Below are positions 153 to 64,000 of a DNA stretch of 64,000 nt, one piece after another. The translations under genes and the position numbers were made by a program. A model generated the notes under the pieces. It saw only the letters and a program-made list of their open reading frames with translations. It made no database searches and had not been told where the DNA came from. Origin of the DNA: Apus apus (lineage: Eukaryota > Chordata > Aves > Apodiformes > Apodidae); contig NC_067286.1 of NCBI RefSeq assembly GCF_020740795.1, positions 3,529,990-3,593,989 on the forward strand, in the 5' to 3' direction. How positions within the stretch are numbered: the stretch's first letter is position 1; each line of letters begins with the position of its first letter.

Positions 153-3100
153 GCAGTACAATTATTGAAATCACTGTCATGATCTGTGTGATGGGTCTTC
201 TTTATTATTTCTATAAAACTTGGAGAACTGATCCTGGGTATATCAGGACTTCAGAAGAAGAAAGAAAAGAGGTAGGTGAAACAAATGGAAGGACTAACCT
301 GGTGCAGCACAAAATTGGTAGATTTGTTTGTCATTATGTGCAGCTTTGCTAATTTTGAAAGCAGTGAAACCCTTTTTTAAGTTATTTTCTTTGTCATTGA
401 ACAATGTAGATAATAGATAATTTCTTTTGATTTTTGTGCTTAAGGGTTGTGTAAATCACAGGCTGTTTCATAGCTCCGCTTTAGAAGGGCAAAAAGAAAT
501 AATAGCAAATCAATGGGTAGAGAATTCAGTATTTGGTCTCTCCAGCCTGTGGATTAAGGAAAGCATTCTTTTTATCATCTCTTTGTTCTGCATGAGGTTT
601 TATTTCTTCAGATTGCCAGGGAGAATAAACTGCAAGTAAATGAACTAGTAAACATTGTCTATCTCGTACTCATTAAGGAACAGTAAATAAGGCAGCTCTC
701 CTCTTCTCTCTGACTATAGGAGAGGTACCTTGTATGTTAATACCATCTCATTTTTAAGAACATTTAATTCACATTATTAATTTTGGCAACATAGAGATAC
801 TTTTCTGAATAATCCTGCATCACTGAAGTTGCATTAATCTGTTATGCTTCTCCTGGACCTTTTTAAAAACCCAGTGCTTATTCCTATTGGTGCTTGGCAG
901 CCAAAATGCTTATGAACTGCAAAAAGCCTAATGTGAAAATCTTCATACATCTTGAAAATGTGATCCAAATGCTAGCATGAACTTCTTTGTCTTTCAGAAC
1001 ATTGTGGCTCTTGCAGAAGCAGGTTGCTTGGACTTCAGAACATTTTGCACCTCATGTCTTGTAAGTGAAGCTTTGCTATTTGTTTTCTAACCTTTTCGTT
1101 TTCTTTAGTCAATACTGCTGTAAAAACTTCTTCCCTCATTTCTTGTCATGCAGGTGTGATTTGCACAGTTTGGTCTATGTTACTTAGATTTCTTTTTCTT
1201 GTTTTATGGTGACAAAAGAAATGCTGTGAGATCCTTTGACTGTAATATTAATAAAAAAGCATTGTTATGGTGGTTGGTGTTTCAATCACTTTTTTTTTGG
1301 TAGAATTAAATTGTATAGTTCTCATCTATGTTCTGTGTTGTGGGGTCTATTAAACAGTAATTGATTCTCTAAACTTTGAGCAAAATAGATGCTTTTGCTC
1401 TGACTCTTGTTTTCCTTCATCCTCCCCTAGGTAAGGAAGCCTCTGAGATCCATGCACTGCCTTGCTTGTGATTCATGTGTGGCCAGGTACGACCAGCATT
1501 CTCTGTGGATTGGACGGTGTGTAGGTGAGAGTGTTTGTTTTATCAAATTTGAAAATACCACTTGTTTCAAAAGCTGCAGAAATAACATTTGTCTCCTTCA
1601 AAAGCACAGCTGGTACAGGAATGCCCAGCTGATACTGAGGGGTTTACTGTTAGCTGACAGAGGGAAATGAGTTAGATGGCAGAGAGAAAAGCCTCTACAA
1701 AGATAAAAGAGATGGAGTTGTTGCCCTAAAAGTAGAGACAGAAAGCCTGAAACTCCTTCTTTTGAGAGAGATGACTGAGACTTTAAAAGGGGAAAAAAAA
1801 AAAGGAATGAAGATGATTGCCAAAGTGCATGCAGAACTGTTACTCGTCAAGCACATCATACTAGAACTAAGCAAGGCTTAGTGAGGACAGCATTTGGATT
1901 TAAAATTGGTAAAGAAAATATGTCTTTACAGGCCAGGCAGTGAAATTTTGGAGCTTGCTGCTGTAAAGGTTTCCAGATACAGACAGTACCAGGAGGTTCA
2001 GAAAGGCATTAGACAAACTTTTGGACAATGTGCCCAAAAGTAAATACTAAAAGAATGAGACAAGTAGGCACACTCTGACACTTTAATGCAGTAGCTGGGG
2101 ATGAGGAGAAGGAACTCTAGAAAGCACCCAGACTGCTTTGTCCTCCTGAGCTTGTGTTTCCTATTGTCCTTGTTAGAGCAGCATAATCCCCTAGGGCGTT
2201 TTTACGTTCTGGTATTCGTTGAGAAACTCCCTCTTCCTTTCTGTCCCATTACTGTTGATGCTCAAGATAGAGAGGTTAAAGCTTTACGTCAATAGAAATA
2301 CATTTTTTAGCCTATTATTTTACAAACAGTTTTTTTGTAATGTTAAGAACTTGGAAATGTTTTTACAGTGTTTGCTGTTTACTAGCTGGTGAAGTAACCT
2401 TCTGGTGGGTTGTTTCAAAGCTGCAAGCAATGCTGATTGCAATTTAGAGATAAAAATAGTTGTATATCTTCATGTAAGTTTCTCTGACAGAAACCTGGGG
2501 GGGTTTATGGATATATTTGCAATTCTGAAGTGTACAAAGCTCATGCAATAAAAGGGAATAGCTGATATTTTTCAATCATATGAGACAGTTGTGTGCAGAG
2601 GGAGAGCTGTGGTAGCATAACATTGTCCTTTAGCTGGAGCAGCTGAATCATGCTCTGAAGAAGAGACAAATCCTGGTTGACTTGCTCAGAACTAATTCTG
2701 TTCTATAAATTGGGGTGGCTTATAGGAGAAAGTTGAGAAAGAAAGCAGCCTTGTCAAACTCCCTTGAGGACAGCAGAAGTAATAATTTGTTTTTATTCTT
2801 CCTGTGAATTTACAAGGAAATGCAAATAGTGCTGAATTTCAAATGTCTGGTTTTTAACAGGCCTTGGGAACCATCGATACTACCTATTATTCCTGTTTTT
2901 CCTGTCTGTGACCAGTGGCTGGCTGCTTTATGGAACTCTTCTGTGTATGTATCCATTACTTTGTTTTAATTTAGCTTTCAAAGATGCATGAGTTTGGTCT
3001 TTATGTCATTTCCAGCAAGTGTAATTATACGTGTGCAAATGATGCCATATTTTGGCAACAATGTTATCTTGTAGTTCTGTCTTTAAGTGAAAATGTATCA

Positions 3101-6100
3101 TGTCTGAGTCTTTGGTCAAATATCTGATTACATTTGAGTTGAAACTAAGATAGAACTCTAGTGGGAGGTCCATTGGAAAATAAAATATCAGAAAACATTT
3201 TTATTAGAGGTGAAATAGGGAAACCATGTGGGGAAAGATCAGGGTCTAGTCTGGTTACCCTTTGCTGCAATAGAAAACAAGTTTGTAAATACATTATTGC
3301 AAATGCTTTATTGATTTTGTTATTTGGAAATATCCATGTTGCTGGCCAAACTTTTTTTTAATGTAATGATGTTTTGAAAAGAGGAGAACTGTGTATCTCA
3401 TTGATAAATCCAAACTGTTGCTTTGGAAACCTTAAAAAATTTCTTGAAGGGAAGAGAAAAACCCTGATAATGTAGGTCCTGAGGATGAATTAACAAAGCA
3501 CTAACCTTTCCAATAAAAAGTAGAGGGAGTTCATTTTCTTTTCTATTACTTTTCATTATATTGAAATCAATTGGTCTTCAACATAGAGTGAAGTGAACAG
3601 GCTGTGGCAGTGTAGGACACAGGACACCCAGGTGAACACGAGTTGCTTTCCTGTGTTTCAGTGGTGGTCTTGTGTATACAAAAAAACGTTTTTTCTCCAT
3701 GTGAGGGGAAAAACCTCTTTATTGTTCTACTGACATGGAGGCAAAAGAAAAGTTGCTTTGCTTTTAAGTTTTTCTGTGTTTTTTTTTATAGGGTAAAGGC
3801 ATATGGGGTAGGCTTTTAAGTATCTGTCTCTTAAGAAATCTACAGAAGTTGAACATTCTAGTTTGCATCTAATAGTGCAAAAAATCCTGGCATTGTCACC
3901 ATGGTGTCTTCTTTTGTTGATGAGGGTGTTTAAGAGAAATGATGAATTCTTGTCCTAAAATTACAAATAAGCACAGAGCAAAATTTCGGAAGTCATGACA
4001 GTGAGAGAAGATGACTTATTTCATTGGTACTAGTTAACTTTAAAGAAGTACCTGCCCAGTGCCTTGAATGTTGCTGTTGTGGATTGTGAACACAGAAGGA
4101 TTATGCAGCCAGAACAGCAAGAAATCACATATCTGTGTGGGTGCTTTTAAGTGGGAACGTGACATGTCAAACATAATACTTCTAGGGCATGTTGCTGTGT
4201 AATTTTCCTTCTGTGCAACGATCTTTGTTCAGTTCTGAAGTGGCCTATGTTAAAAACCTAATTAACTCATCTTGCATCTTGTCAGATTGGTCAAACCACT
4301 GTGCAACAAGTTATCACCAAGATGGAGCGTGGATGTACTTGACACAGATAATATACTGCTCTCCCTGGGTCTTCTACATCTTCTCAGTAGCCAGTTTTCA
4401 TGCTGTGTGGACTTCTTTGTGGCTAACTGTTCAGCTCTATCAGGTAGTATTTTGCTTCAGCTTATGCTCTTCTCTCAAGGAGTCATTGTATTAAAACATT
4501 TCCCTGGATTATTTGCTCCCACAAAAACTTTGCTTTCCTTGGCTAATTAATGTCACTTCTAGGTGCTTTTCTTAAATCTCAGGGCAGTCCTTTAAATTTC
4601 AGGGGTACTTGTGCACTCAGCATTGCTGTATTAAAAGTAGGATCACGATCTGCAAATCATTCTCATAACAGAGTTCTGGATTTCCTACTCATAAAAAAAT
4701 TTCCAAAGATGGATTTAGAGGCAAGAAATTTAGTTGATTAATAGAAATGATATGACTACCCTAAATGGGTACAAAAACTCCGTAACACAACTAGCCCTGA
4801 GTTGAAAATTCTCTTGCAGAGCTCACCAGTGCATCATTAGACTGTATTAAATCCCACTGCTACAATAAAAATGCATGGCCTGAATTTTGTCCTGATGAGG
4901 ACTGTCCAATTTCTGCTTTATGGTTTTTCTCAGAGCATTTGGCTCTGCAAACAAGATTAAGGGGAGCTGTCTTAAAACATCTAAGAAACAGCTTGTTTAG
5001 CAGCTTTTAGGAAAGACGTGTCATTTGAATATGTGTTAAGCATACTGAGCTAAAGATTTGGTTTACATCTTGGTTTGTTTGTTTGTTTTAAATAAATAAA
5101 AATTCCACAATTTGAAATGTGTGCTGCTAGATTTCTGTAATGTCCAAGACACTGAGATATCGTCCTGGGGATAAAAAGGGGTCTAGGTAGGATATTTACA
5201 GTTAACTACTGTGTTTCATACACAGTCATTGTAAATGTACTGCTTTAGGACATGGAGCATGTCACTCAGCAAAGCAACCTTGCAGCCATTTATAAGGACT
5301 CAAAAGATTTATGTTGAGTTTTAAAAAATAAAGGAAAAAGCGATAGATCAGCAAAAATACAGAAAAAAAAACAAATCTCACAGTGAAACTCAGTGAAAGA
5401 AAACACCAGATCCAGAAGATGAGAAAGTTATTGTTGAATCTTTGCCATCTACTTCATCTTCTTTGCTAAGCTGCGTTGTCTTATTTGGGGTAGACAAAAT
5501 ATGAGGAGACAGGTTCTTAACTGTCATAGATCTTAAACTTGTTGTACAGACACCTGTGCAGGTACAGTTCTACAGCCATTCCAATTAACCTTGCCTCCTC
5601 TGTGAAAGCCTGGTGTTACAGTTGGCTGTGTTTTGTTTTAGTCTGGGTGTCATTAATTATGGCAGTATTAGTTGTTAGATATGGCCAACCTCTTCCCCTC
5701 CCTCCCTTCTCAATAGTATCTTTTGGTATCACCAGAATTTTAATTTGTGATGTTGATGTTTTAACCATTACTTATGTTTTCCTTGCTGGAAGATTGCATT
5801 CTTGGGATTGACCTGGCATGAGAGAATGAACATCCTGATGCAGAATAAATCCTCTAAGCATCCTGTTTCACTCAGGAGAACTCCATATAAGTGAGTATTA
5901 ATTAATGGTGTGTTTTAACCACGTATCTTTTCACTACTGATATGCTTCACTACTTCATAAATGCAAAAAAAGCTGGTTGGTGGACATGCTGGACATGCCT
6001 GTTAGGAGCTGTGCTAAGAGGAGGAAATGAACCTCATTTTCCTTGCTGAGAACTTCCTTTGCCATAGGAAATAAAGCTAATAAACCCGTGAGCATAAGAG

Positions 6101-6786
6101 CTAGTGGAATTCCTTCCACATAGCTGTGTGTATAGGGAAAAGCTGTGCCAAAATCAGTCCACAGCTTCAGCAGAGGCTGTTTTGGGGGTGAGGGATGTTG
6201 TCCTTTAATTTGTTGATCAGTCTCTGTTCTGTAGGTTCAGAAAGAGAATTAAGATATGAACTGGCCTCTTTCTGGCTTCTCTTCCAGCATTTAGCTCACT
6301 TGAGAAATTAGTACCAGAATTTCCCTGTTAGTACTAGAAATCCATGTTTCCTCAGTGTGTTAACAGATGAGATCTTACCAAGTACTAAGCTGGAGGTATT
6401 TGAGTTGAACTTGATCTGCTGTCACTGTTAAATATAATACAGGTTGTAAAAGTTCAGCAAAGGAACGATGCTCATAGGAGAACCCTGCTTGTATTTCTTC
6501 TCTCAGATCTGTCTTTATTGACATGGCTATTGATACAGCTTTCTATCTTAAGCACTGTCTTGTGGTGTGTTTTTTGGATTCCTGTAATCTTGCCTGAACT
6601 CTGTATTCTTATTTTCTAGGTTTATTAATGGGTATTTCTCTCTTTTTCAGTCTTGGATGCTTCCAGAATCTTGCAGACTTTTTTCAGTGCAGTTGCTTTG
6701 GTATGGTCAAACCCAATGTAGTTGACTGGACCAAACAATACAATCTTTTTCATCTGGCAAAGGAGAAAAATGTTCATTCTGTATGA
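153..6786 (+). CDS. ZDHHC13: ZDHHC13 (HIP14-like palmitoyltransferase), 3' part, seven exons
   Basis: Exons read at 153-271, 998-1060, 1431-1524, 2861-2944, 4286-4443, 5793-5890 and 6651-6786 (TGA at 6784-6786). All junctions keep phase and encode about 249 C-terminal residues of a protein of about 620; the N-terminal ankyrin repeats lie off the left edge. The family is a polytopic Golgi/ER enzyme that moves palmitate to protein cysteines and also scaffolds clients through its ankyrin repeats. Visible in order: a membrane segment before KTWRTDPGY; the DHHC cysteine-rich domain ([19 protein letters not shown]); two hydrophobic segments (LLFLFFLSV and [13 protein letters not shown]); LTWHE at the TTxE position; and the PaCCT-like [12 protein letters not shown]. 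Oddity: the catalytic position is Ser, not Cys (codon 1500-1502). The first exon start is the least certain; an acceptor at 156 would start it at 157. Confidence 0.95.
1431..1524 (+). CDS. ZDHHC13: ZDHHC13 catalytic exon with DQHS motif
   Basis: A CCTCCCCTAG acceptor precedes 1431 and GTGAGA follows 1524. The exon encodes [10 protein letters not shown]..., the second half of the zinc-binding DHHC domain. Cysteines at codons 1458, 1467, 1476 and 1518 and His at 1455 are present. The tetrapeptide is GAC CAG CAT TCT (1491-1502), D-Q-H-S. Human ZDHHC13 has DQHC as I recall, with the final Cys forming the acyl-enzyme. The frame is open and both splice sites are normal, so the exon does not look decayed. 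Confidence 0.93.
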
Positions 6787-8318: not shown

Positions 8319-17020
<8,702 letters not shown>

Positions 17021-26759: not shown

Positions 26760-29700
26760 TTAGTCTTCAGACACTTCAAGTTTTCGTTGAGGAATATAAA
26801 GAGTTCCTTGAGAGACCCTGTTGGGACCATCTGAACTTGCAGGTAGTGAAGATGCTGTGTTTGGCCCTCCTGGGGTGCGGAAAAAGTTTTCTGTAACTGC
26901 CTGGGATTCCTTTGGAGCAGAAGGCTGAAGAAAAGAGTGAAAGTTACTTTCAGTTAAGGGGAATTTAAAAAGAACTGTAGTTGTAGGTCTCTGCAGGATG
27001 TTACCAAATCAGGGGTTTTTTTCCTGGAATTTAAGAACTTCCCAACACTTTACTGAGAAGAATATATCTGTTTTCCTTGATATAGCTAGAAATATATATA
27101 TATAAAAAATCAATTCCATAAAAAGCTGGTTTCTCTAATCCCATTATCCTCTTCTTTCATACAAACTGACCTTATGCAGTACACTATTACACAAAATATA
27201 CAGAGAAACTTCCTGGGAAAAACTCAATTTTAAAATCCTCTACAATCCCATCCTCTTAAAAAAACCTAACACTGAATGCAAGAACTTGAGAGTTAGATGA
27301 GGTAACACAAAGGAAAGATGAAGTAACAAATGGATGATTTGTTAATAAGTGTCTTGTCAGATCTATGCGAGATCTTCCCTCTGAAACAGTTGTCTCTTCA
27401 CACCTTGTCAGCTTCCAGCTGGCTACACTTCCACAACAAGTAAGATACTTGTTCTTCCTTTCTAACCTCTCAATTACATTGTACTTTCACTGGCCTTCAC
27501 TGCCAGCTCTTTATGGGCAGTGCTGATTTAGAAAGATTTAAAAAAAATAATGTTTATTTGGAAATTTTGCCTGCTGTAAAGGAATTACTGCACTATACTG
27601 TACTGCACTATATTATAGCCCCAGGTTGGATGGGGCTTGGAGCAACTTGGTCTCATGGGAGGTGTCCCTGCCCATGCAGAGGGGGTGGAACCAGCTGATC
27701 TTTAAGGTCCCTTCCAACACAAACCAGTCTATGGTCCTTCCCACTCAACCCATCATGGTCAAGAAGTTGCAATATATTTTAACTTACCTTCTGTTCTTGC
27801 AAGTTCATGTTTCCTGAGCTATGGCTAACATTGTCTGTTTGTGGAGTGACTGGCAGCTGCTGAAGAACAGGATTTGCAGGGACTTGCACACCAGCAGGTA
27901 TCAGTCCTACGTGCTGCAGTGCAAAGTTCAGAACTGAAGAACTTGGATTTGGGGCAGAACTGGCATCGCTGGAATTGGGACAGGAGTTGCTCAGCACAGG
28001 TGCTATGGAAGTTGGTGAGAGCATTATATTCCAGGGTGTGATATGAAAAGCAGGAATGTTAACTGCTTTCAGGTCAGATGTTGTCACTGGAATGACACCT
28101 GAAACAAAAAAATCAAGTGTTGAAGGGGATTAAATGTCTTGTGATTTTCTTACCTCAGTGGGATGAATCTGGCCCAACATCCTCCCAGCTGTGTGCCAGT
28201 TCTATGGGATACCCACCAGCAAGGGGGGAGCTGTAGCTGCTGTGCTGTAAGGAACATATTGCAGCTTTCTCTGCATCAGAAAAGCCTGCCTTGCTGCCAT
28301 GGGTGCACTGAGTGAGGGGAATGAGATAGCCAGATGGAAAAAAAGTCTGAAAAAGAAAAATACAAACCCCTAGTAAATAGAAGATGAAGTTTTTCTCCCA
28401 GGTTGCATCCCCCTTGCCTTGTTCTTTATCCTCCACACCCCCAGATCCTATATTCCATGCCTGTACCACCTTCTGTCTGAAATTAGATGGAACTGACTCG
28501 AGCACTCTTTAAGGTAAGACTGGCCTAGTGTGCAGAAGACAGCTGGCTCAATTTCCAGCTGATATCCTCAGTGAGGAATTAGAAATCCATCTGGGAGTAA
28601 CACAGTACAATTAGATTAGACAAAAGAGATCCTGATACTGAATACTACTTTTTCCACACCCCCACCCCCCCCCGAAGAAACATCTAGACCCAGTAATCAT
28701 CATGTCACCTCATTTTTGGATTCTGTTTTTCCTAAGACAAATATTGGAAAACATATACATTTGCATTTACAAGTTCTGGTTTTGTCATCAGAACTGTTCT
28801 TTATTCAGGCTTACTACAACAGTAAGTCTTAACTGCAGAATAACAAATTTTCCTGATGAAAGTTTGTGTATGTTGTGAATCAAAGTATTGGAGACTAAAT
28901 ACAGACAAACACAGGACTGGGGATATAAGGGATCTCAACGTTGCCTTCATCTACTTAGTTTCGTGATCTTCATCCCAAGCAAAGCCTGAAAGTCACTTCA
29001 TGTCCTCTTATTTTTGTACTTAAATGCTGAAACAGAAGTCCTACATTCCTACAAAATAAGGCTTTAAAAGCACACTAAAAATAATCCATCCAAGGGCAAT
29101 CTATATATGTGTAGTTGAGGATAGTTTCGTTTATTTTGCAACGACTCCAAGTGTTTTTTTCCCAGGCAAGAAGTGCTGTGGGGTCTGCCAGGGCTTACCT
29201 CGTGAGCGGGAATGGCAAATGCTACAGGGATGTCTTGCTTAGTTTTGAGTTTGTCCTCATCTTCTGGAATATCTTCTCTTTTACCTGGGTCGTAGCAACT
29301 TGTTGTGTTTTGATGTACTGTTTTGGTTTTGTTCTGCCTCTCTTCCTGAAAATTGTCCATTTTGTGATTCATTTGTGAGCTGCTGGAAGGAGGTCTTTCA
29401 TTTTTAACGGATTCCCCCTTTAAAAAAAAGTCCATACAAAACCAAAGGCAGACATGGTGAGACTTAACATTCTCAATTACAGGCCTACAGTGATACTTGT
29501 ACATCTTAAAATTCAGGAAAGCAAGCTTTGTCCTTTCTCCTGATTCCCAGGTTTGTGCTATAAACATTTTGATTCAGTAAGACAACCAGTTCTATGTTGT
29601 CCCCTCTCGGTCCTCCACAGCTAGTGGATGTTTGACACCACGTGTTGTCCAAACATGCTGATAAGACTGCACGACTGTTTTGGCAATCACAATCTAAAGG

Positions 29701-32700
29701 GGCCTAATAATTTACAGAGACATTAAAACATTCAGCAACGGAGGAGTAGAAAGCCATCCAGTTTCTCTACATGCATCAAGTGTATCTGAACCTCATCATC
29801 TCTCCATCTGTATTATTATTATGCCTACAACAAGCCAGCATTACCAGTGTACAACAATGGATAGAAAGATTTAGAAGGTGATTTTGGGACATTCCCTGTT
29901 CAGAGGCTTTGATGGCCTTTCAAAGCCATGTGGTATATTGCCTACTATATATTCTGCCTGATGCTTTGCAAATGCCAGCAGGATTATGTGATATTTATAT
30001 ACACGTGTGTGTGTAAACAAACAAAAACCAGCCCCCTGAACATCAGCAAGCACAACAAATGAACATCATCCCTTCAAGTATGGTGTTATTTAAAATGCCT
30101 ACACATAATGGCAGGCTCCTAAGACACTTTAAAAATAAGTAGGTGGCAACATCATTAAGGTTTAAAATGGCATGATAAAATTAATTCAACTTACCGGAAA
30201 CGTATCAAGGCTTTCCTTGTCACTTCTATACCTTTTAATTAAATTATCCTCTTGTAATGCTTGTGATCTTTTAAGGCACTGCTGTGATGAAGTTTCTGCT
30301 TTTATAGTTGGTCTGCCTTTAGCTGCCAAGGACTTTGTTGGATCATCTGTTGCTATCTGATTGTCCCCTTCCTCAGTGGTTATTTTATTTAGTACTTTTG
30401 AATTGACGCTCTTAATTCCAGTTACGTTAGCACATGGTAGAGGCTGCAACATGAAACTTGGGCTGTATGTTGTCACAGTGTGGGCTTGGGAAGGGTGCAG
30501 ATAGATTGCATATGAAACACCAGAATGAGTATGAGGTAGAATCACTGGCGAGACTGAACTGTGGCTTGGAGGACAGACACTGAGTGGCTGCTGAGAGGGT
30601 GCTGAGGTGCCAGGAGGTTTGGGCTTGGGAACTACCTCAGGTGAGGACAAATTGCATTCCAAAGCAGATCCTGACAATTTCATTTTCATCTCTTTTGCTT
30701 TCCTTAAAAACAAGCCAACAAAAAAAAGAATCAGTATTTTAATTTATTGTAATACCTTTACACAGAAATCCATGCCCTGACAAGTAATTTTCTGCAATAC
30801 AAAGACTTAACATGAACCTGTCCTTCTCAATACACTGAACAGAAAACAGTAAGTGAAAAAACCCAGCCTGCAGTACCAGGGCTTCCCAGTTTCTGCAGAC
30901 TGTTGCCCAACTCAAACTTTAACTTCATGGCCAGGGACAAAAGAAAGCTTCTCACCTTCCTGCTTGTGCAAACTTACTTTGATTGTCCTTCCAGCTGATG
31001 TTTAGTGATTGCTGGAACCTGAGCCATTTTACTTGGGAAAGCTGATAAATTTTGATCAGTACCTGGTTGGAAGGGGAGAACAAAACAAAACTGAAGTTAA
31101 ATTTTGCCTCGGGGAAACTGCATTACTTCATCTGGCACACACATTGGAAGAGCAGACACTAAATCTCCTTGTTATTCTCAAACTGCAGCCCTGACTGGAT
31201 TTGATCAATTGGATGGTAGCTTCTGGCAAACAAATTCTTAAGCCTCAGCTCTATTTTTTTTCCCTCTGAAGAGGATACCTAACAAGAACATGAACATTTC
31301 TAGGTGATTTTCTGACAATTTTATGGAATACAGAACTGCTTAAATAGTGAGACTGAAAGCAGTTTCCACAACAAACAAGGGTTACAGTAGTTCAAAGCAA
31401 AATATAGAATATCCAGAGAATCAACTATACTGCATAAACAGGAATTTGTAGCCAGTAAGACATCACACGGAGTCAAGACAGGGGGGTGTAAAAAGGGATT
31501 TAATATTCTTCCTAAAGCAAAAATAAACAATATGCCACTTCCTGTGTATTCAGTGTGAAAGAGGAGGCTGGAGTTCCCCCCAGTGTGCTGAATTTGGTCC
31601 AAATCTCAATAAATGTATCTATTTTTTTCCAACTGTGCAAGCTGTGACTGGCTTTGGTCCACCAAGTTGAAAAGAGCTTCTACTAATTGCAGAGCTTACA
31701 CACTGAGCACTGATCAGTTTAGCTTTGCTTTCACTATCAAAGCCTTAGATTTAAAGGGAACATGTATTTTCCCCACCTTGTTGTATATTTTGGATATTTC
31801 TTAAAACATTTTTATTGTAAGAAGATATATCCAGACATCCACATCTCCTTTGAGGAGGTAGTAAGTCTGAATATTTAATGCAAGACTCCATCTGAGTCAA
31901 AAACATTCTTAGAAAAAGATACAGGAATATATGTTTCAGCTACTTACTTGCACTTATTTTAACTGGACTGGTTGGAGCAGACTGGATCTTTCTTCTGTCA
32001 TTTTCTATACTTTTAACTAACTTTATTAGAGAAGGATGCCTGGTGAAGTTTTGCTTTCCTTTTGAAGGAAAAAGGTTTTTTGAACACTGCTCTTTGGAAG
32101 TGATGCATTCTGAAATAGCTGGGGGACAGGTTGTAGAAGTTGCTTCAAGTTTTGTACCTAAAAAGCAGAAAAAAAAAAACCCAAAGAGTAAATAGGTATC
32201 ATATGCACATTCAGTAATGAAAAGCAGTTATTTGAGCCTAGCTTACAATTATTTAAGTCCTAGCAGCAGCAGAAATGGAAATGCTAGAATCTCAGTGTAT
32301 CTACTCTGTGACATGCTGGTGTGCAGGGCTGTCAAGGGGTGTAATGTAAGTAGTAAAGACTTTCTGCTTGGTTTCCTCTGTCTTTGTCAAAAAAATTCTC
32401 CCCAAGAAAACAATGAAATAATCAAAATCATCAGCAGAACAAGAGGAAATGGCACAGTCACCTACCCTGAATATTTGGCAAGACCTCAGGTCCTGTCCAC
32501 TTGAATGCTGGTTTTCTACCTCTCTCTTCTGTGACGTGAACTTTCTTGATAAGCTCCAGGCTACTGAGAACATTTGCTATGTCATAAAGTCTCCTAATTT
32601 TGGCTGAAATAAAATAAATAGAAATGTGAAGTACAGAAAATCCAACAGATTAATTAGTATATATCAGGTTAAAAATGTTACAATGCCCTTTTAGCAACAA

Positions 32701-35700
32701 GGAAAACCCTTTGTCATTTACTTATAAGAACAATTCTGAGGAACAGGTATTTATGCTATGAAATAATGTATCACAATGAAACCCACAATTCATTCTTGAT
32801 GCCTCAAGAGCAGGCACATCTTTTTATTATTACAGATACACAGGCCTAGACCTAGAAGGACCTTTTCATTTGATAGGAGAGGAAGAGGAGGAAGTGTGCA
32901 AGGAACTGAGATCAGGGTAAAAGAATGAAGAAATAATTGGCAGTTACAGCACTGGGTTTCGCTTCCTCTCGTGTGTAAGTTATTAACAAGACTTTTACAG
33001 AATTTCTTTAGATTTCAAATGAGTAAGTTCTATAATCAGAACACAGATTTGCATGATTCTGGGGCATCTTTGAAGAAACAATACTGAAATCTTTGAAAGG
33101 CTTGATTTGAGGAAAGGTAAGTTGTTGCCCACAAGCAGCCTTGTGGCATTACTCAGGACAGAAGATTTAATGGACTTTTTCTTTCATGTGGTCATTAGGT
33201 ATCAATGACTATGCACAAGTGGGTCCCTATTAAAAACTGAGCAAGGTGTTTAGTGAGTTTCCAGAGGTTCAAATCTGTTTGTGGCAGGAAAAAGATTATG
33301 ATATTTTACACCATATAAACTTGTACAGGAACAGTCGAGTCAGATATTTCTATTTAGAACAAGATCAAAAAGCAGACACTAACAGCAGCATTTTACTTAC
33401 TTTTAAACTTGCTTTTATCCAAGTCTTCTAACTGGTCTTCTCCAATCAAGATTTTAGCAGCAACTTCAAGGCTCACTATTTGAGGAGTTGATACAAGAAA
33501 CAGCATCACAAATTTCTGGCTCATCACTCGCAAAGACTTGTCTTTCCTGCTATTTACTGATGCTGCAGCAGCAGGAGAAAGGATGAAAGGATTAAGTGAC
33601 ACACCAGCTCTGAACGCTTATAAAACGCTGAAGAAATTTGTCAGCAACAATTATTGTAAGAACAAAAAACAGAGCAACTAGGCAGGGCTGCTGTGGACTC
33701 CAGAATCATGTGTCTACATGGCAAGAATCAGATAATTAGGTGGATACTAAGTCTAACTACAAAGAGAGAGTGCAACGTTTCCTCTTGTATACATCTCCTG
33801 TTGTCTGACAACTTGTACTCTTACAGATGCTTAACTGCAGCTTATACAAGGTATTTAAACAATCCCTAATTAACATTTTTCCATGAATCAAGCCTAAATT
33901 AATAAATAGATGAATGGAGTAATCAATACACTTCTGGCTTTACAGTATTCAATAGTAACAAATCCTGCAGTTGGATTGTGTGTTGGGTATGTCTGATGGT
34001 TTCACCTGATGCCCCCTTGTTCTTGCACTGTAAAAACAAAATGCACGTGTAACACCTGAACAAATAAGAGAACTGAAAGAGTGCAGAGAACTTATTCTCC
34101 CCACGAACAGCTGTGATGCCTTTCAGGCAGTACCATTTCAGAAAAAAAAAAAAAAAAAAGTTCCAATTAGTTTTTTTCCCAAAATTCATAGATATTTATC
34201 ATTACAAAGCCATATTATTCTGGGGCATGACAGAGAATTATTACCAGCACGAAATTCCATTCCTGGGAGCTCGACAAAAGACATTTCTGAATTCTCACTC
34301 GAGCCCAAAGTTCTTGCCACTTCTTCATTTCTTTCCCCATCGAGATCAAACTCGTGCTCGTACTCTCTTTTCTTGATCATCTGAATTTGTTGGGTGTATT
34401 TGTTCTCCTCTCCAACTTTTTTCAAAGCCTGCAGGGTTTTGTAGAGGTTGTGTCTCCCATGCCAAGCATATCTGTTCTTGGCCAGGCGGCTCACCATGTG
34501 CAGGCTCTCCAGCACGTTCACGATGTCATAGATACGTCTACGTTCAACATCTGGAAAAAAAAAACCCCACACATGACCATGAGATACTCCACTACATAAA
34601 ACGTTTTGTCATATTTACCTGAAATACTGCTTGCACAAAGGCATCAGTTTCCTTTGCTTCCCCCTCCTCTTAATATACTTCTAAGACATTTTTGATAATT
34701 TCTCGTACAAAGGTTTCTGAAAATAGCCCTCGTAGATCTTGCCAGCAAGGAGAGGAAAATAATTCTTGCTTTTGATATGGAAAGACTTGCTTTTTCCCAG
34801 TTATGCTTGGTTTACAGCATTCCTTAAGAAATAAAACTTACTGTTGCCAGAAGAGCCATTAGATGGGTTTCAATACAGCTTTAAAAAAAAAACAAAGCAT
34901 TTTTAATTATTCGTTGCATTGATTTTACATCATATTAAATATCCTTGGAAATTCATGGTAGACAACAGTTTTGTAACTGTTTTTTGTATTTTTTTCTATT
35001 TACACAATGTTCTCTTTCATGTGTAAATTCTTGGTTTTGACTAGGCATTTTCTAAAGGAGGTGTTATTTGGTACAAAGTATAACTAAAATAAGACATTTT
35101 GTTTAATTTGAAATTCATCCCTCTTCTGTGTCCTCAAAAAATTCTGAAGACATTTTGAGCAGTGAGATTTATAATTATTATCAGTGTTATAATCTGTAGA
35201 ATACTGTCACTTAATAGCTCCTTGATTAAAAAAAAACAAACCCTCTGCTTAATGTTACCAACTCAGGTGCTCGGTAGATGGTTGGTGTGATATAAAAATA
35301 GTGATATAAAATGAGAAAATTAAAGAGCAGAAAGTAGTTTCTTGCTTTGATGTCACGATTGGACAAGAAGTTGGGGGCTCAGCTTGAGAAACTCTTAGTT
35401 CCTGCTTCCAAAATCCAAGCACTACTCTTAGCCATCACCTCTAGATCCAAAAACACCTGCAGCTGGTTATTTGTGGTCTAAGCAATCATTTGGATGCTTA
35501 ATATTAAACATAATTCAGAGTTTCTCAATTTGGTTCACTGAAGAAACCTCAGCTTTTTAGAAGAATTGCTCCAAGAATGAAGAGTTTAAAGCTGGTTTAA
35601 ACCAATATGGAGAGTATGCAGGAAGCATTCAAACTGTTACAGAGCACAGATGTGCCAACACAAATGGCAGGTTACTGGCACATCGGCACGTGGAAAGATG

Positions 35701-62011: not shown

Positions 62012-62826
62012 CTAAAAGCAAGGTGAGGTTGTAGTCACGATTTTATTTGGGGAGGACCTGTACTTTCTTTTCTCCAAGACTGAGGCGCCAGAGGAAGAGT
62101 GACAGGTAGGACTCACTGGAGTTTTTACAGAAAATGAGGAAAACCCCTTGAAATCCTGGGCTGCTACCAGGACGGGAAGGGTAAAGGTTGGTGCTGCTCC
62201 TGGATACAACCTCCCACAGAACTGGTACCATTTCTCTTCATGCTTACCCCTCTCAAAAGGCGGTAGGCAGTAGCCATCCCGGGTTTCTTGGGCTGCAGAC
62301 AGAGCAGGCAGTGAGTCGTAACCAACTGGTTGCCTTCAGAACCCCCCAGCCTCCCGACCCTACCCGTTTCAGCGCCTCCGCGACTCCGACGGCAACATTC
62401 CCCTCTCAGCGCAAGGCGTCACAGCGCTGCCCCCCACAGCAACAAGCGGCCTTTCCGTTCGAAGCCCCCTCTTCCCGTCTGGACCCCGCGTTCGGCACCT
62501 GCGAGGGGATCTGCCGGAGCTCCCCTTCCCCACGGAAGCCGCGCGGCTCAGGCAGGGCTAGCGGAGAGGCGGCGGGACCGAGGGAGCCGCGTCACGGCGG
62601 GAGACCCGCTGGGACCCGGGACTCGCAGACCAGCGAGGCGTGCGGGACCAGCGCTGGCTCCCGACGAGCCCCCCCGCGGTGTGACGAGCAGGCTGACGAG
62701 CTTCCATCCCGCCTGCCTTCCCGCCGCTGCCTGGCTCAGCCTCGCCGGGCTCTGCTGCGGGTCACCCGAGCACTCACCAGAGGTCGGCACCGCCTTGACG
62801 TGCCCCGGGGGCCCACCCACCGCCAT
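62012..62826 (-). CDS. Candidate two-exon small gene, function unknown, divergent from the NAV2 island
   Basis: The minus-strand ATG at 62826-62824 sits in AAGATGGCGG, a strong Kozak and YY1-like context inside the CpG island. Sixteen codons plus one base (MAVGGPPGHVKAVPTS) reach donor GTGAGT at 62777. A pyrimidine-rich acceptor, CTGCTCTGTCTGCAG, opens exon 2 at 62292. The frame continues as AQETRDGYCLPPFERG and stays open to TAG at 62014-62012, 109 residues in all. Exon 2 has an internal donor (GTAAGC after 62248) that could give another form. A minus-strand AATAAA at 62047-62042 lies before the stop and another at 61928-61923 lies after it. No domain, signal peptide or family recognised; it may be an antisense lncRNA with a chance ORF. 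Confidence 0.35.
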
Positions 62827-63600
62827 CTTCCGCCGCGGGGCTGGCAGGCGGGGCGGGGAGCTGCCTGTCCGCCGCCTCCTCCCGGCGGGAGCGGGAGCGG
62901 CTCGGAGGGGCGGCCGCGCCCTCGCACGGCCCCGCACGCCCCGCACACCTCACGCCCCGCACACCTCACGCCCCGCTCCCGCCCGGCAAGCGGCTCCGCA
63001 CTCACTTCGCCGCTCGCCAACCCCCGCCCTCCCATTGGCCGGGCGGCCCCACGTGGTACCGAGGGCGGCCTCCTGGTTGGCGGGCGGCGCTGCGGGGGGG
63101 CGGGGCGAGGCGGGGCGGGGCGGGGCGGGCGGCAGTTGCCCGGGGAACGGGAGGTGAGGAGCGGCGGCCGCGCCGAGCTGAGCCGGGCGCGCAGGGGGGG
63201 CCCCTCGCCCTGCCCCGGGCGCATGGGCACCGCGGGAGCAGCAGCAGCAGCACCACGACCACCAGCACCAGCACTACCAGCAGCAGGTACCGGCGGGGGA
63301 CTTGCCGCCGCCCGCACGGGGAACCCGTCCGGTTGGCAGGAGGGATGCGAAAGTTTGTCCCGGTGGGCTGCTCCGCCGGTGAGAGGAGCCGCGGTCCCGG
63401 CGGGTGGGTGGGCGGGTGGAGCCCCTCGCCCTGCTGGCGGGGAGGGGTCGGCAGGGAGCCGTGCCCCGCCGGGGGAGCCGGAGCCCCTTCCCGCAGCGAG
63501 CCCCGGCGCTGCCCGCCCGTGCTGCGGCGGGAGCGGCTGCTCCGCGGGATTGCTCGGTGGGGGGGCCCCCCGACTTCTGGAGAAGGGGTGTGGGGGTCTG
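62330..63600. promoter_or_regulatory. CpG island, probable bidirectional promoter (NAV2 side)
   Basis: CpG-dense block with reverse CCAAT at 63034-63038, CACGTG at 63050-63055 and a run of GGGGCGGGGC-type Sp1 boxes at 63096-63130. AAGATGGCGG lies on the minus strand at 62829-62820. Minus-strand splice signals lie left of the centre and a plus-strand donor lies right of it, which suggests divergent start sites around 62.85 and 63.1 kb. By synteny the + strand gene should be NAV2. The 275-aa + strand ORF here is a composition artefact. Confidence 0.65.
63130..63286 (+). other. NAV2: Candidate first exon of NAV2
   Basis: Follows the Sp1 cluster and ends at CAGCAG|GTACCG. It has an ATG at 63223 that would give MGTAGAAAAAPRPPAPALPAA over 21 codons plus one base, but the start context is weak and the (GCA/CCA)n make-up may simply be leader sequence. 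I assign it to NAV2 only from synteny; I do not recognise the peptide as NAV2. The exon may be untranslated. Confidence 0.35.
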
Positions 63601-64000
63601 TGTGAGGGGCTGTGGGGGGCTGTGGGGCGCGGGGGCTGCGTGTGTGTGTGTGGTTGGGGGGGGAGGCTGTGGGTCCGTGGGAGGGGCGCGGGGTGTCTGG
63701 GGTGGGAAGGGGGCTATGGGTGGTTTTTGGGGTGCATGGGTCTGTGTGAGGGGCCGTGGGGGTCTGTGGGGCGGGGGGTGCTGTGTGTGTGTGTGTGGTT
63801 GGGGGGGGAGGCTGTGGGTCCGTGGGAGGAGCGCGGGGTGTCTGTGGGGGGGCTACGGGCGGTTTTTGGGGTGCAGGGGTGTGGGGGTCTGTGTGAGGGG
63901 CTGTGGGGCGTGGGAGCTGTGTGTGTGGAGGGGGCTGTGGGTCCGTGGGAGGAGCGTGAGGTGTCTGGGGTGGGAAGGCGGCTGTGGGTGTTTTTTGGGG
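63588..64000. repeat. G-rich minisatellite, about 120-145 bp units
   Basis: GGCTGTGGGTCCGTGGGAGG recurs at about 63665, 63810 and 63933 (spacing 145 then 123), each copy followed by a GGGTGTCTG block and GGTTTTTGGGG-like or TTTTTTGGGG sequence. Units also contain (GT)n and G runs able to form quadruplexes on the + strand. The array runs off the right edge. It lies in the presumed first intron of NAV2. Confidence 0.85.

Follow-up and report, generated by a model that had tools for sequence, protein, structure and literature searches.

ZDHHC13 of Apus apus reads DQHS at its catalytic motif and is probably a full-length pseudo-acyltransferase with retained ankyrin client binding

Whether ZDHHC13 acts through catalysis or through ankyrin binding is debated. 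In zDHHC20, the catalytic triad consists of Asp153, His154 and Cys156, and two zinc ions are each bound by three cysteines and one histidine (PMC8059564). The mammalian ZDHHC13 motif is given as DQHC (PMC12646662, PMC9800311), and despite the glutamine at the histidine site some activity is credited to the protein, with huntingtin and ClipR-59 described as palmitoylated (PMC8059564); elsewhere its activity is called doubtful (PMC5359973). The human protein is described as self-acylating weakly and as modifying some clients. On most zDHHC17 substrates, mammalian zDHHC13 is reported to show lower activity or none, it binds SNAP25 and CSP without their acylation following (PMC9800311), and it has been proposed that many zDHHC13/17 functions may come from ankyrin binding. 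Nevertheless, the human C456S mutant compromised CTNND1 palmitoylation (PMC12646662), and a D453A/Q454A mutant did not rescue autophagy (PMC11339336). Given that catalysis matters in these human-cell settings, its loss should carry a cost. Loss of ZDHHC13 in the mouse has been associated with alopecia, osteoporosis and amyloidosis, and also with Huntington-like deficits.

Departures from the DHHC motif are known in other members of the family. Yeast Akr1, Akr2 and Pfa5 (DHYC) depart from it as well but retain the cysteine, whereas the yeast Swf1 and Pfa4 proteins with arginine at the catalytic position are engineered and, according to a review, keep partial activity (PMC8107437). A literature search, conducted mostly among papers available without subscription, brought up no description of a ZDHHC13 that naturally lacks its catalytic cysteine. 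The survey in PMC5359973 dropped domain hits without the motif, so a case such as DQHS would escape it.

The gene described here is a ZDHHC13 of Apus apus in which this cysteine position is occupied by serine. In keeping with a bird genome, its alpha-A globin scored between 264.8 and 243.1 bits with chains mostly named hemoglobin alpha-A, among them presumably bird chains such as 1faw and 3wr1, and at most 213.6 bits with those that followed, six fused double-chain constructs with the top scores being left aside. The window, meaning the whole stretch of 64,000 nucleotides that was analysed (C6:3529990-3593989, where C6 is contig NC_067286.1), holds only exons 11–17; exons 1–10, with the ankyrin repeats, lie upstream of it on the same contig, and the coding sequence was spliced across both. 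The gene model was built by tblastn with a presumed human ZDHHC13 sequence and by reading of splice sites. It comprises 17 exons (C6:3520413-3536775) with a coding sequence of 1860 nt, which encodes 619 amino acids in one open frame; all 16 introns are GT-AG, and the stop is TGA. Two donors upstream of the window are weak, namely those of exon 9 (GTTTGT, C6:3526692) and exon 10 (GTATTC, C6:3527555). Since exon 13 has 94 nt, its skipping shifts the frame, and any full-length product must carry the serine. The coordinates within the window are collected in Table 1.

Table 1. ZDHHC13 features within the window (window positions)
Feature	Position	Strand	Remarks
Exon 11	153–271	+	DPG motif (D396 at 230–232)
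Exon 12	998–1060	+	Zinc ligands C426 (1046–1048) and C429 (1055–1057)
Exon 13	1431–1524	+	DHHC-motif exon, 94 nt; acceptor ends CCCCTAG, donor GTGAGA
Exon 13 zinc ligands H439, C440, C443	1455–1457, 1458–1460, 1467–1469	+	Counted from exon start
Exon 13 zinc ligands C446, H453, C460	1476–1478, 1497–1499, 1518–1520	+	Counted from exon start
D451-Q452-H453 of the motif	1491–1499	+	
Ser454 codon TCT	1500–1502	+	Replaces the acyl-accepting cysteine; aligned to human C456
Exon 14	2861–2944	+	End of cysteine-rich domain and next transmembrane part
Exon 15	4286–4443	+	Transmembrane part
Exon 16	5793–5890	+	TWHE (residues 549–552) in the TTxE motif position
Exon 17	6651–6786	+	C-terminal tail and TGA (6784–6786)

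The gene is a genuine ZDHHC13 (HIP14L). The spliced protein matched the Pfam families Ank_2 (E 7.4e-44) and DHHC (E 2e-28, residues 422–555), so that N-terminal ankyrin repeats are joined to a DHHC domain, and its motif has DQH instead of DHH, whereas ZDHHC17 of the same genome reads DHHC. A search of the NCBIfam profiles returned no family. Mammalian ZDHHC13 shares with the Apus apus protein the layout of ankyrin repeats followed by the DHHC domain, the exon order as judged by alignment and the D-Q-H residues, but it has cysteine where Apus apus has serine. The paralogue ZDHHC17 (HIP14) has the same architecture, and its zDABM-binding ankyrin residues are also present in Apus apus ZDHHC13; unlike ZDHHC13, ZDHHC17 of Apus apus retains DHHC. 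A PF01529 search of the genome gave 21 matches. The motif could be read in 15 of these loci, 14 of which have DHHC, with ZDHHC13 alone reading DQHS; the scanned stretch of the other six (L030, L031, L033, L034, L035 and L036) contained no motif, and, judging from their locations, L035 and L036 are probably further exons of genes that another locus represents. A second copy with the cysteine was considered and rejected. Among the best-scoring candidates, the DNA search of the genome matched one place, and the protein search returned six rows: exons 13 and 14 of ZDHHC13 account for two, and the remaining four are more remote DHHC matches.

At window positions 1491–1502 on the forward strand, within exon 13 and in frame, the sequence GACCAGCATTCT (GAC CAG CAT TCT) encodes DQHS. 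Human ZDHHC13, which we take to be 622 residues long, presumably carries the cysteine of its DQHC motif at position 456, and Ser454 pairs with this residue in the alignment to the presumed human sequence. The same number, C456, is used for this residue in PMC12646662. Gln452 occupies the position of the catalytic histidine in most DHHC enzymes, while H453 is a zinc ligand. Consequently, both the histidine and the cysteine of the triad are missing (Q452, S454), and neither of these catalytic residues of an active DHHC acyltransferase is present. The initial annotation had described DQHS with TCT at 1500–1502, good splice sites and a frame open to the normal stop, all of which the letters, the frame and the GT-AG introns bear out; it had also placed DQHC in human ZDHHC13, in line with the motif published for mammalian ZDHHC13 (PMC12646662, PMC9800311). 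The human C456S laboratory mutant has the same substitution at the aligned residue, but it is engineered whereas the Apus apus serine is genomic, and the partners and the cell type differ.

Several other explanations of the motif were rejected. A chance reading was dismissed given that D[QHY][HY][CSAR] occurs only twice in the six frames of the 64 kb, the second match lying on the minus strand (25648), where a stop is close to it in the same frame; apart from this match, the window has no other such string that could represent an alternative exon 13. A misread frame or a splice error is at odds with 17 exons and 16 GT-AG introns in a single frame. Neither A-to-I nor C-to-U RNA editing can convert TCT to a codon for cysteine, and a G-to-C difference at the second codon position is a product of neither. 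Beyond this genome, a pattern scan of viral contigs gave no match, and a scan of prokaryote genome contigs gave 222 pattern matches, none of which was confirmed.

The remainder of the cysteine-rich domain is intact, as had been proposed from the first inspection of the DNA. All eight cysteine and histidine zinc ligands are present (C426, C429, H439, C440, C443, C446, H453 and C460), providing at the sequence level two zinc sites of three cysteines and one histidine each. Six of them, from H439 to C460, align without gaps with human DHHC20, and the spacing of C426 and C429 presumably matches that of zDHHC20 as well. Given these ligands and the gap-free alignment, the DHHC domain of Apus apus ZDHHC13 should fold. 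The serine itself is compatible with the DHHC fold, since two solved zDHHC chains, 7khm and 6bms, read DHHS at the motif in the alignments; the zebrafish zDHHC15 structure is that of a catalytically inactive mutant (PMC8059564). The complete 619-codon frame, the zinc ligands and Ser454 together present the form of a putative pseudoenzyme, in which the whole fold would be kept and the catalytic residue is lost.

The ankyrin domain matched the solved zDHHC17 ankyrin chains 5w7i and 3eu9 with E values of about 1e-96. In zDHHC17, Asn-100 and Trp-130 touch the SNAP25 peptide (PMC5655499). Alignment identified N89 and W119 as their counterparts in Apus apus ZDHHC13, in a chain numbering deduced from the 30-residue spacing; both are kept, and the residues for binding zDABM peptides in zDHHC17/13 are thus predicted to be in place.

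On this basis, we consider that ZDHHC13 is here a full-length pseudo-acyltransferase that retains ankyrin client binding, with a probability of roughly 0.58. Judging from the codon, a palmitoyl-enzyme intermediate most likely cannot form on this protein, and acyltransferase activity would be lost. The protein, presumably expressed and located at the Golgi, may use its ankyrin repeats to bind clients with zDABM peptides at Golgi membranes, where it could retain them, pass them on to ZDHHC17 or act as a competitor of ZDHHC17. The suggestion in the initial annotation of a pseudoenzyme left with an ankyrin scaffold role fits the conserved ankyrin part and the published view of ankyrin binding. The serine is best read as the final step for a paralogue whose mammalian form already shows little activity on many substrates.

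The serine call comes from one assembly of one individual, and the substitution, although presumably fixed in the species, could instead be a private or low-frequency allele or a consensus error of the assembly, in which case the species would have a working DQHC enzyme. Such an origin is unlikely. The codon is a single base away from TGT, and the remaining domain resembles a working enzyme, as expected for a very recent change. Nonetheless, the assembly consists of long contigs (1.10 Gb in 110 contigs), and the serine stands alone as a substitution in a clean exon that matches a single place in the genome, which is unusual as an assembly error; G-to-C changes also fall outside the deamination class of damage.

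Early decay of the gene, with catalysis dispensable, no role retained and the serine as the first visible lesion, appears somewhat more unlikely still. Relative to the presumed human ZDHHC13 sequence, with which all human comparisons were made, 400 of 616 aligned residues are identical, and ZDHHC13 was more divergent than ZDHHC17 in the comparisons made. After exon 1, exons 8 (40.5%) and 11 (40.0%) show the lowest identity to the presumed human sequence, and these values would suit decay, as would the weak donors of exons 9 and 10. Conversely, the 17 exons are free of premature stops and frameshifts, all splice dinucleotides are in place, and identity to the presumed human sequence is retained at 165/200 in the ankyrin part (48–247) and at 39/51 in the cysteine-rich domain (419–469). 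DHHC13 is listed as missing in none of the 11 bird rows of a keyword-based table that is silent on the motif (PMC8227752), and the main text of that source, in its available part, makes no mention of DHHC13 or DQHC. The two divergent exons are also well below their neighbours: exon 8 (C6:3526143-3526268), which spans the linker and, ahead of it, the final ankyrin repeat's end, has 17/42 identical residues, and exon 11 (window 153–271), which leads up to the DPG motif, has 16/40.

To polarise the protein changes, the ZDHHC17 exons of the same genome were taken as outgroup, and residues at which the presumed human sequence agrees with ZDHHC17 and Apus differs were counted against the converse, over 331 of the 619 residues. 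The ankyrin part showed 9 changes on the Apus lineage versus 11 on the human lineage (169 sites), the transmembrane part 4 versus 7 (75 sites) and the tail 2 versus 1 (34 sites). For exons 12–13, there were 5 versus 3 (53 sites), the 5 including C454S. This lean of the catalytic exons toward more change on the Apus lineage is not significant (Fisher p = 0.68 versus ankyrin, 0.45 versus all the rest), the count being small, and a recent relaxation may underlie it.

Least probable is retained acyltransferase activity, either through direct attack of the client's own cysteine on palmitoyl-CoA or through an acyl ester formed on Ser454, given that human ZDHHC13 is impaired by the corresponding exchange of cysteine for serine (PMC12646662), that the general-base histidine of zDHHC20 (PMC8059564) is replaced by Q452 and that onward transfer from a serine ester is a hypothetical step.

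Extended beyond this species, the reading of a pseudo-acyltransferase with ankyrin binding would become that of a ZDHHC13 pseudo-palmitoyltransferase fixed in a bird clade or in all birds, kept under purifying selection and tuning ZDHHC17. We put this forward tentatively, the odds being clearly below even. Such a protein would bind zDABM clients, and perhaps also palmitoyl-CoA, but transfer no acyl group, and the scaffold role would be naturally split from the enzyme role. A vertebrate living with the counterpart of C456S would reveal which ZDHHC13 functions need no catalysis.

Additional features were observed downstream of ZDHHC13 in the window. On the minus strand, pieces resembling CSRP3 lie at 8319–16984, one of them with a C-terminus followed by a stop, and open frames resembling E2F8 lie at about 28129–34608, including the frame at 34608; we take these to be CSRP3 (muscle LIM protein) and E2F8, the presumed neighbours of ZDHHC13 in the vertebrate gene order. 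At about 62185–64000, both strands contain long open frames of up to 605 codons with proline-rich and histidine-rich repeats, which more likely represent a GC-rich tandem repeat than coding sequence.
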